From Acidobacteriaceae bacterium (GTDB taxonomy: Bacteria > Acidobacteriota > Terriglobia > Terriglobales > Acidobacteriaceae): a stretch of 59,914 nucleotides of DNA. Below the pieces are notes generated by a model. It saw nothing but the letters and a program-made list of their open reading frames with translations. It had not been told where the DNA came from and did not search any database. This document shows, piece after piece, positions 30,689 to 32,937 of this stretch. Both the position numbers and the translations under genes were made by a program. Each line of letters begins with the position of its first letter. Positions within the stretch are counted from its first letter, which is position 1. The DNA is taken from the NCBI GenBank assembly GCA_003160215.1, contig PLQW01000277.1, forward strand, positions 3,837-63,750. Reading direction: 5' to 3'.

Positions 30689-30803
30689 GCAAGATCTTGA
30701 AAATAAAGAGGCGGTTAGAATTTCGCCTCGCAAAATATTCCATCCAAAGGAGTTAGATGTCAAAATATTAATTCGCAAGGAGTTACGTCGCAAGATACGT
30801 CCC
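30689..30803. repeat. 30-bp tandem repeat array upstream of recA
   Basis: Units start GCAAAATATT or GCAAGAT and contain AAGGAGTTA or similar. Unit starts are at 30689, 30730, 30760 and 30790. The last three are spaced exactly 30 bases; the first interval is 41. A C-rich run (30668-30680) precedes the array. It occupies most of the gap between recA and the IS1595-type element. Confidence 0.65.
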
Positions 30804-30835: not shown

Positions 30836-30843
30836 TAAAATAG
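30836..30843. repeat. Target site duplication, left copy (TAAAATAG)
   Basis: An 8-bp direct repeat TAAAATAG is found exactly at both ends of the element at 30844-32929; the right copy is 32930-32937. Confidence 0.85.
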
Positions 30844-30856
30844 CAAGATTATTCAC

Positions 30857-30885
30857 TTGACAAAGGGTAACCGATTCGATAGTAT
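30857..30885 (+). promoter_or_regulatory. Promoter in the left inverted repeat driving the transposase
   Basis: TTGACA (30857-30862) and TAGTAT (30880-30885) are spaced 17 bases apart, a strong sigma-70-type promoter that starts inside the inverted repeat and reads into the element. The predicted leader to the transposase ATG at 31044 is about 150 bases. Confidence 0.6.
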
Positions 30886-30901
30886 GTGTTCATGGTCGCC
30901 G

Positions 30902-31045
30902 TTACTCTTTTCCTTTCTTCGGTTTTAAGTACTTTCGGATCTCTCCGGATTCCAGCATACCCCGCAACTGCTTCTTTATCCCTGAAGCCAGCTTTCGAGT
31001 TGGGATGCGCTGCAACGGAGACTTCAGTTTACGAGGTGCTGCCAT
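30902..31045 (-). CDS. 47-aa basic protein antisense to transposase leader
   Basis: MAAPRKLKSPLQRIPTRKLA followed by a Lys/Arg-rich helical stretch. The ATG at 31045 has an excellent ribosome site (AAGGAG, four bases before). The start codon overlaps the transposase ATG (31044-31046) by two bases on opposite strands, so the two genes diverge from one CATG. The function is unknown; a small nucleic-acid-binding or regulatory protein is plausible. Confidence 0.45.
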   Translation of the reverse strand: MAAPRKLKSPLQRIPTRKLASGIKKQLRGMLESGEIRKYLKPKKGKE

Positions 31046-31943
31046 GACTCTCCTTGACGTGAATGAAATGTTCTCTACCGATGCGCAATGCCGCGAACTG
31101 TTGGAGCGGTTGCGTTGGCCAGAAGGCGTGATGTGCCCGCGCTGCAAAGATACTCGCGTCTCGCGCCTGAAAGATTACTCCCGCTTTGAATGCGTTGGCT
31201 GTGAATACCAGTTTACGGTGACCAGCGGAACGATTTTCCACGACTCCCATCTTCCCTTGCCGATATGGTTCATTGCCACGCTTCTGCTGTGCGAAGCCAA
31301 GAAGGGCATGAGTGCTCACCAACTGCGGCGCACTATCTGGGGCGAGCACAAGGGTTCCTATAAAACTGCGTGGTATCTGTTCCATCGCATTCGTGCTGGT
31401 ATGGCGACAGCAGAGCGGCCCATGCTGGACGGTACAGTCGAGATGGACGAAACCTATGTAGGCGGAAAGCAGCGCAATCCCGGACGCGGTAGGGCTACCA
31501 CAAACAAGGAAGTCGTAATTGGTATTCGTCAGCGGAATGGTGCATTGCGGTTCTTCCACGCTGAGGATGCCAAGACTGGAACCTTGGCGCGGTACATCCA
31601 AGAAAACATCTCGGAAGATGTTGACGTAATCGTTACCGATGAATTGCCCGCTTATCGCAAAGCGGTTGGTAACGCTCGGCATGAAACGGTTAACCATAGC
31701 GCCAAAGAGTACGTTCGCTTGGGAACAGACATCCATTCTAATTCCGTGGAGTCCGCCTTTTCTTTGCTCAAACGCGGCATCATGGGAACGTGGCACAAGA
31801 TTAGCGCGAAGCATTTGCAAGCCTACTTGGACGAGATGACGTTCCGCTTTGACCGCCGTGGTCGTCCCGATTTGTTCCTCGATACTTTGCGCCATATGGT
31901 TACTGCTGACCCTTTGACTTTCGAGAAGCTGACAGCCGCTTAG
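31044..31943 (+). CDS. IS1595-family transposase (ISXO2-like)
   Basis: 299 residues. The N-terminal zinc ribbon is CPRC...CVGCEYQF; the ISXO2-type catalytic domain follows with MDETYVGGK (first acidic residue), VIVTDELPAY (second) and the ending NSVESAFSLLKRGIMGTWH containing the third. The ATG at 31044 has GAGG upstream at a good distance. Its stop overlaps the stop of the convergent passenger gene. The gene is apparently intact. Confidence 0.92.
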   Translation: MTLLDVNEMFSTDAQCRELLERLRWPEGVMCPRCKDTRVSRLKDYSRFECVGCEYQFTVTSGTIFHDSHLPLPIWFIATLLLCEAKKGMSAHQLRRTIWGEHKGSYKTAWYLFHRIRAGMATAERPMLDGTVEMDETYVGGKQRNPGRGRATTNKEVVIGIRQRNGALRFFHAEDAKTGTLARYIQENISEDVDVIVTDELPAYRKAVGNARHETVNHSAKEYVRLGTDIHSNSVESAFSLLKRGIMGTWHKISAKHLQAYLDEMTFRFDRRGRPDLFLDTLRHMVTADPLTFEKLTAA

Positions 31944-32827
31944 AGTTTAGTGTTCTTCGGTTTGTCAGCCTCACTGAACGGTTCCAAGTAGTCATTTTGG
32001 AACGAAAAATAATCCGTTGCCTTCTTCTCAGATATCCTCAATTTAGGCCCTAGCCTATCGAACAACCATTCACATCTCTCCCATAGGGAATCCGTCCATG
32101 TCATCAGCTTGCCATCAGGAAAAAGAATGTCGATTTCGGTTGCCTCGCCCACGCCGGGGACTACTTGAGAAAGCCGCTTTGCCTCATAAACGCTGTAGAC
32201 GGTTTCAATCAAAGACTTTTCCGAGTCGTGTTCGCGCTGATGAAGTACGGGAATAGCCACATATGAGCCAGTGCCAATCGCGGCGAAGTTTTCCCCTACC
32301 TGAACGACATTTTCGTGGTCACTTTGGTCGTCTACCACAAACAGATATGGGTTGTTTTCTCGTTCCTCGTTCGACTGCCCGGTTTCAATGAATCCAGCCA
32401 ATATCAAAGCGGCTCGCAGCCTTATGTTCGCTACTTCCTCTAGCCGTTTCGTGACGATTTCTTCTGGGTATTTCTTGTCTGGAAAAACCAAGTCGGCATA
32501 GCTGATACCAAGCATCTGTCTGAGGTAGTCGTTCGCCAGAACTTCTTTCTGCTTGTGGGCTGGTTTCTTCATTTCCTCAAATAAGTGGCGGTCATCGTCA
32601 ACTGGCCCTAGCGTTCGCAGATGGGTTTCGTATTGTGCTACCAGTTCCTCGCAATGCGAGAGACTGTCTGCCATCAGTGCAACCCAACCCTTCGGCAGTG
32701 TTCGGAGTTTATCTGCAGTTTCCGACCCCCCCAATTCTGTTTCTGATTTCCAGTCGTATCCAACAACGATTCGCGGCTCATCGTTGTCTTTGTCCTGCTG
32801 ACAGATCGCGGCAATGCAAACGGTCAT
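31940..32827 (-). CDS. Proteasome-like Ntn-hydrolase passenger gene
   Basis: 295 residues starting MTVCIAAICQ, in which Thr2 would become the N-terminal nucleophile after Met removal. ETADKLRTLPKGWVALMADS supplies the typical Ntn Lys and second strand. The middle and C-terminal parts carry no other recognised domain. The ATG at 32827 follows AAGG by nine bases; an in-frame start 54 bases upstream is unlikely. It lies inside the IS with its stop overlapping that of the transposase, so it is a passenger. Its substrate is unknown. Confidence 0.7.
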   Translation of the reverse strand: MTVCIAAICQQDKDNDEPRIVVGYDWKSETELGGSETADKLRTLPKGWVALMADSLSHCEELVAQYETHLRTLGPVDDDRHLFEEMKKPAHKQKEVLANDYLRQMLGISYADLVFPDKKYPEEIVTKRLEEVANIRLRAALILAGFIETGQSNEERENNPYLFVVDDQSDHENVVQVGENFAAIGTGSYVAIPVLHQREHDSEKSLIETVYSVYEAKRLSQVVPGVGEATEIDILFPDGKLMTWTDSLWERCEWLFDRLGPKLRISEKKATDYFSFQNDYLEPFSEADKPKNTKL

Positions 32828-32929
32828 ACGTTTACGCCTTTCCATCAGCCGCCGGAAGGTGCGAGCATCTGGCGGCCTCACTGAGCACCGCCATCATAAC
32901 ATTTTCCCTTGGTCAAGTGAACTACCTTG

Positions 32930-32937
32930 TAAAATAG
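32930..32937. repeat. Target site duplication, right copy (TAAAATAG)
   Basis: This is the right 8-bp copy immediately after the CTTG end of the element. It matches the left copy perfectly. Confidence 0.85.

Follow-up and report, generated by a model that had tools for sequence, protein, structure and literature searches.

What does a small insertion element of the IS1595 family carry between its ends, and what would the carried gene do? We addressed this question for a 59,914-nucleotide stretch of DNA from a genome of the Acidobacteriaceae (this whole stretch is the window; plain coordinates are window positions, and comparison loci and genomes bear L and G numbers), in which an IS1595-family insertion element of 2,086 bp occupies positions 30844-32929. 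A first examination of the letters alone (the original prediction) had proposed a mobile element with a proteasome-like hydrolase as passenger. Comparison with related elements establishes the ends of the mobile element, a clade-wide association of its transposase with such hydrolases, and the retention of a putative catalytic triad in passenger proteins that have otherwise diverged strongly.

The element is bounded by 27-nt terminal inverted repeats at 30844-30870 (left, plus strand; similar ends occur in other elements of the clade) and 32903-32929 (right, minus strand), with 81% complementarity between the two ends, and it is flanked by a perfect 8-bp target-site duplication, TAAAATAG, at 30836-30843 and 32930-32937; the intact repeats and perfect duplications of the original prediction are thereby borne out. 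Its transposase (299 amino acids, 31044-31943, plus strand) combines a DDE domain with an N-terminal zinc ribbon, and its matches exceed the curated cut-offs (DDE_Tnp_IS1595, 3.4e-37; Zn_ribbon_IS1595, 1.6e-12; NCBIfam IS1595, 3.4e-53); antisense open reading frames (ORFs) within this gene were read as shadow frames. When inverted repeats and duplications were sought together in 33 elements of the clade, 31 had exact duplications and two (L078 and L124) had one mismatch, and in shuffled downstream DNA (one shuffle per element) the lowest real score was reached for none of the 33. The window element is present in one copy in its host genome, which holds further, more distant IS1595 transposases or fragments (34-49% identity). 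Six of the 33 clade duplications (L063, L065, L088, L128, L130 and L131) match the palindromic pattern ACTNNAGT, which suggests a target preference. Immediately left of the window element lie two neighbouring 30-nt direct repeats, 70% alike (30731-30790).

The passenger gene (31940-32827, minus strand) is convergent with the transposase gene, the two stop codons overlapping, and encodes a 295-residue homologue of proteasome-like N-terminal-threonine hydrolases, of a group that we call type A, as judged by profile, predicted fold and residues. Used as a single query, the protein gave only sub-threshold matches in Pfam, NCBIfam and PDB sequences and itself missed the curated cut-off of the Proteasome family (PF00227); UPF0122, PRK14109 and 1vct, found among such matches, were treated as chance and rejected as its identity. 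Its resemblance to proteasomes shows only in the company of its relatives, one of which (L008, 35% identical) exceeds the Pfam cut-off for PF00227. An AlphaFold2 model built on an 11-row alignment (A9; pLDDT 80, pTM 0.79) had 1028 Foldseek matches in the PDB at E <=0.001, and all of the 50 matches listed are proteasome entries (for 3h4p_a, TM is 0.72 by target length and 0.52 by query length), so that the passenger is predicted to have the fold of a proteasome subunit. The protein begins MTVCIAAICQ, and its family-conserved positions Thr2, Asp25 and Lys40 (the last within ETADKL) are the equivalents of Thr1, Asp17 and Lys33 of the proteasome-like family. A Thr nucleophile and the Lys in ETADKLRTL had been singled out beforehand, together with an N-terminal nucleophile (Ntn) hydrolase fold; both positions turn out to be conserved in the family, and the fold recurs in the structure prediction.

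Is the hydrolase peculiar to this copy? We surveyed 398 genomes of the window's family from two sides. In the hydrolase-first survey, profile A1 matched in 26 of the 398 genomes at 32 places, and a convergent IS1595 transposase lay within about 1.3 kb of 17 of these genes, the window copy included (a transposase fragment was present in L076). The transposase-first survey, in which the presence of a passenger was not selected for, gave matches to the window transposase at 1e-60 or better in 87 of the 398 genomes. Sixty further loci were taken from the top of this list, and 53 of them entered a first tree of 82 rows (those left out were L152, L160, L162, L164, L165, L169 and L175, four of which end at or near the transposase); removal of 15 distant rows yielded a second tree of 67 rows. 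In this second tree the window transposase belongs to a clade of 39 members (bootstrap 100; SH-aLRT, the Shimodaira-Hasegawa-like approximate likelihood ratio test, 98), and 36 of them have a convergent proteasome-like ORF (16 of type A and 20 of a second group, type B). Member L142 has a ClpP-like SDH protease instead (PF01972, 1.9e-14), and the remaining two could not be judged, as the contig continues beyond the transposase for 285 nt in L121 and 852 nt in L132; no such ORF is seen in the 852 nt available at L132. The original prediction had turned on whether transposase and hydrolase occur together elsewhere or the gene is absent from all related copies, and the 36 members answer both points in its favour.

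The sister clade (16 members, support 100/98) yielded no type A or type B match in any member; in 10 of the 16 the slot is occupied by an ORF with predicted membrane segments (L144, L145, L148, L151, L153, L155, L157, L159, L161 and L173), one has another ORF, and the remaining five gave no delimited element. A Pfam scan of eight of these ten membrane-segment passengers gave nothing over a cut-off. Six partial transposase matches (63-75% identity) stand outside the tree: L152, L160 and L162 run into a contig edge, G638 was not retrieved, and in G374 and G407 a type B gene adjoins the transposase fragment. Among 297 genomes of the phylum the transposase was found at 1e-70 in seven, two of them outside the family (53% and 49% identity), so the clade seems centred on the window's family in this sample.

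Type B was first recognised by eye, through a pattern of MT..., AD and K, and the profiles A7 and A8 consequently include most of the passengers counted. Support from outside these profile-based counts comes from PF00227 matches at E 0.01 (type A, 16 of 27 proteins; type B, 7 of 17), from the similarity of the family profiles to proteasome subunits, which is one mark of the proteasome-like family (type A to the M. jannaschii proteasome beta subunit, 8.3e-15; type B to 20S beta5, 2.7e-10, and to Anbu, 1.6e-8; HslV is among the profile A matches and Anbu among those of profile B), and from a direct comparison of profiles A and B (98.2% probability). In the type A alignment A8 (27 members), Asp25 and Lys40 are present in all rows and Thr2 and Gly54 in nearly all. 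Across 34 clade passengers (the apparently broken L133 and L135 being omitted), mean identity is 21% for A-A, 20% for B-B and 14% for A-B pairs, and the transposases average 65%. The Asp and Lys are kept in all 33 passengers with a readable N-terminus (that of L067 is cut by the contig end); 31 of them have Thr as the nucleophile and two have Ser. Apparent internal stops in the type B matches L134 and L141 were shown to be normal C-terminal ends. The window's own genome also holds a type B homologue (L228; G000:C149:66547-67305), around which 1.5 kb of flanking DNA gave neither an IS1595 nor an IS1-like transposase match.

How such dissimilar passengers came to sit in one slot was examined at the DNA level in 22 pairs of elements picked for close transposases. 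Paired elements align over their left part, in most cases starting at the left repeat and ending near the transposase stop (74-86%, with one short stretch at 66%), the passenger region has only short DNA matches of up to 74 nt, and homology resumes in the last 19-76 nt in 20 of the 22 pairs. Transposase identity and passenger identity are uncorrelated (-0.02 over 120 A-A pairs and -0.06 over 153 B-B pairs), and transposases that are 93% identical can yet have passengers that are 18-21% identical. The A/B label changes 12 times on the transposase tree, against 12.05 +/- 1.6 changes with shuffled labels, and a nearest-neighbour test found the same type in 21 of 34 cases, against 16.5 +/- 3.5 (p 0.13). 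A link of types A and B to particular transposase lineages was rejected on the identity comparison and the label shuffling, and by these alignments the passengers behave as exchanged cassettes that change as a block, independently of the transposase. The suggestion that the passenger protects the transposase gains no support, because passengers vary independently of it. In a type A tree of 36 rows, transposon-borne and other copies are intermixed, with at least 13 changes, making several captures or losses likely; end-like motifs precede 5 of the 28 copies classed as other, and that class may thus include remnants of elements.

The exchange might also be all that there is to explain. Cassettes could circulate by recombination of elements in the transposase and right end that they share, and the protease class would then be a historical pool that serves nothing; the boundaries of the swaps coincide with shared DNA, and the A/B labels are random on the transposase tree, as such hitchhiking would have it. 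We nevertheless regard it as very improbable, given that the triad is kept in 33 of 33 passengers, that only 2 of 36 ORFs look broken, and that type A also occurs in or beside two distant IS1595 lineages and beside IS1-like transposases.

These occurrences beyond the clade are as follows. Type A genes lie inside or beside elements of the two distant IS1595 lineages at L053 (exact duplication) and L081 (exact duplication, weak repeats). A scan of one named genome collection gave eight relatives, of which L053 (from Hyphomicrobiales) and L059 adjoin an IS1595 transposase; L059 and L081 are 100% identical over 6,586 bp, and L081 comes from a genome (G448) of the same genus as the window genome. 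Genes of type A or B are convergent with IS1-like transposases at L048-L052, L071, L087, L207, L218, L223 and L224, five of the transposases matching NCBIfam IS1 at 1e-14 to 4e-17, below its curated cut-off, and six of these loci share a right-end motif just outside the hydrolase. When relatives of one IS1-like transposase were fetched, 6 of 30 carried type A or B (all six already in the hydrolase lists), and in 8 of 30 the right-end motif lay 12-32 nt after the transposase stop, two of these having another farther off. Terminal repeats with 8-9-bp duplications were not found at ten IS1-like loci at the thresholds used, and later both ends were found for L071 only. There, a 4.3-kb IS1-like element (L071:3335-7668) with a perfect 8-bp duplication encloses, along with the transposase, genes for a type A hydrolase and for a ClpP homologue (PF00574, 5.6e-13). 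The loci L048-L052 had come from viral-contig scans with A5 and A6; their reading as phage cargo was dropped, as they adjoin IS1-like transposases. Viral-contig scans with single passengers gave no relatives, and a plasmid tblastn search with the window passenger and one type B passenger gave no match.

Other contexts are more varied. At L068 a type A gene stands beside a GapS1-like protein (2.4e-16, below cut-off), and L068 is 99.5% identical to L069 over 6.1 kb, the two coming from genomes of two genera. At L090 an 867-residue ORF (L090:4833-7433, minus strand) has a GHKL ATPase N-terminus, which a type A hydrolase follows in frame; the ATPase part matches HATPase_c_3 above cut-off and is BbrUII/HgiDII-like at 5e-19, below cut-off. 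At L058 (1866-2468 and 4455-5324) a type A gene has upstream of it a second ORF with a weak match to the type A profile, and the locus gives no transposase match. Homologues also exist away from any recognised transposase, which would suit an ordinary beneficial cargo, that is, a hydrolase which clears stress-damaged proteins and is carried because it helps the host, and Fuchs et al. (PMC8665760) allow, in the part of their survey cited here, that the action of some homologues may resemble that of the uncapped 20S proteasome in clearing damaged proteins. Replacement of passengers in blocks and identities of about 20% are unlike a housekeeping function, and we consider this explanation improbable.

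The element contains a third gene. An ORF on the strand opposite to the transposase (30902-31045, minus strand), located between the left repeat and the start of the transposase gene, encodes a basic microprotein of 47 residues, divergent from the transposase, with which its start codon shares the letters CATG; its match to a clade profile (3.2e-18) was obtained with the window among the eight seeds. The core approximates VPTRKLxASIKxDLR and the tail is KPKK. The eight-seed profile detects the microprotein in 38 of the 39 clade members (L067 being the exception) versus 0 of 35 other IS1595 loci, and in 25 of 33 elements the ORF was given a start Met. The pooled ratio of nonsynonymous to synonymous substitution rates (dN/dS) is 0.21 over 44 selected pairs, a value biased low because the pairs were picked for >60% protein identity and unsaturated synonymous sites; a Shine-Dalgarno-like GGAG within 20 nt upstream, counted by eye in 16 of 25, weighs little because it is antisense to the first transposase codons. 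We accept the microprotein as a gene because its frame lies outside that of the transposase and is conserved, a conservation that the profile counts establish for nearly the whole clade. A single-sequence AlphaFold2 model predicts mainly one helix.

Two promoter-like sites were noted near the ends. The first (TTGACA-17-TAGTAT, 30857-30885, plus strand) begins in the left repeat and points at the transposase; a scan of the window stretch alone is not above chance (2 found, 2.0 expected), and among 33 clade left ends 28 have a match, compared with 2.0 in mononucleotide shuffles. The second, a weak one (TTCACT-17-TATGAT with TG before the second hexamer, 32893-32921, minus strand), points at the passenger, and 11 of 33 clade right ends have such a match.

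What, then, might the hydrolase do? It could serve the element by regulating transposition, either degrading the transposase, the microprotein or a host factor or disassembling the transposition complex; since a generic protease would suffice for this, relatives, and even a ClpP-like enzyme, could replace one another. The nearly fixed fold class of otherwise different passengers agrees with such a role, as do the lone passenger of another fold, which is again protease-like (PF01972), the restriction of the microprotein to the clade (38 of 39 versus 0 of 35), and the convergent genes of the window with their overlapping stops. Uncorrelated identities of passenger and transposase, with passengers of 18-21% identity beside transposases of 93%, speak against it, and 8 of the 30 IS1-like relatives leave no room for a passenger, so that the protease is not needed there; on balance we judge a regulator of transposition rather unlikely, if still the main rival of the reading that we prefer.

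Our preference, held tentatively, is for a protease that is used in conflicts as an exchangeable effector. That the fold class hardly varies speaks for a protease function of importance to the element or the host, and the missing co-variation of passenger and transposase argues against a dedicated transposase partner; the two together lead us to prefer the exchangeable effector to the transposition regulator. The clade is one of three-gene elements, with a divergent basic microprotein, a transposase and a convergent slot, which is almost always occupied by a proteasome-like threonine hydrolase. In the mechanism we propose, loss of the initiator Met would expose Thr1, which with Asp24 and Lys39 of the mature protein would cleave peptide bonds as in the proteasome, presumably without an unfoldase of its own in the element. 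Transposase and microprotein would form the stable module, and the protease would act in trans, as an effector that can be replaced and whose targets vary with the cassette. The most likely setting would be conflict with phages, competing elements or the host, and the element would be kept for the benefit that the protease brings. The hints of conflict are the GapS1-like neighbour at L068 and the in-frame GHKL ATPase at L090.

Several observations weigh against the conflict effector. These hints are few and come from two loci, neither of which is a clade element; no sensor or unfoldase gene is seen in the element; no PADLOC anti-phage model matches any of the 27 type A or the 17 type B proteins; and an ordinary-cargo protease would be expected to go with more kinds of cargo in the clade. 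The window passenger has Asp in the column of the family Gly54 (Gly in 26 of 33 readable passengers), which in our own reading of the alignment is the equivalent of the oxyanion-hole Gly47, and this Asp could impair the window protein. In a smaller alignment the Lys is present in 16 of 17 type B rows, the L137 row not being aligned with it, and two type B passengers (L133 and L135, among the 36 ORFs) appear broken.

A bolder form of the conflict-effector reading, which we think unlikely, is a protease-dependent transposon lineage, in which a constant transposase-microprotein module would be joined to a hypervariable slot for self-standing proteolytic effectors (type A, type B and rarely ClpP-like) deployed when elements, phages and hosts come into conflict; the microprotein could be their constant partner, be it an inhibitor, an adaptor or a substrate. 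If true, it would give proteasome homologues without a known function a role outside protein quality control. That most close relatives of the window element carry such a protease in the same place, each a different one, suggests that the proteases are of real use to the mobile elements or to their hosts.

Among known systems, the passengers are closest to the proteasome-like family, which they resemble in the Thr or Ser nucleophile, the Asp and the Lys, in predicted fold and in sequence-profile similarity. The survey of Fuchs et al. 2021 (PMC8665760), in the part cited here, comprises 20S beta subunits, HslV, Anbu, BPH, connectase and 22 new clusters, and cautions that the family name implies neither peptidase activity nor ring assembly. 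That part reports no genomic context suggestive of function, and the word stem 'transpos' is absent from the main text; the hydrolases of the window's clade differ from the family as surveyed there in being encoded by a transposon. Many bacterial proteasome homologues are without a known function, and the clade supplies a genomic context for them. We found no paper on a pairing of IS1595 with a proteasome homologue in the open-access literature, and no description of a protease-carrying transposon clade in the titles and abstract starts found there. The IS1-like single-ORF transposases have the same convergent type A or B hydrolase as the IS1595 clade and differ from it in that the hydrolase is facultative (6 of 30 relatives of one transposase). 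With regard to insertion sequences themselves, the descriptions cited include IS1595 members with a single transposase gene (PMC8101967) and transporter insertion sequences (tIS) that carry passenger genes (PMC3129680, PMC7986276). The window element is like both, having the DDE and zinc-ribbon transposase, the terminal repeats and the 8-bp duplication of the IS1595 family and, as in a tIS, a non-transposase gene between the ends of one insertion sequence. It is unlike them in that one transposase clade goes nearly always with one fold class, which varies as a block, and with a microprotein; an insertion-sequence lineage whose class of cargo is fixed while the cargo sequence changes bears on how small mobile elements acquire useful genes.
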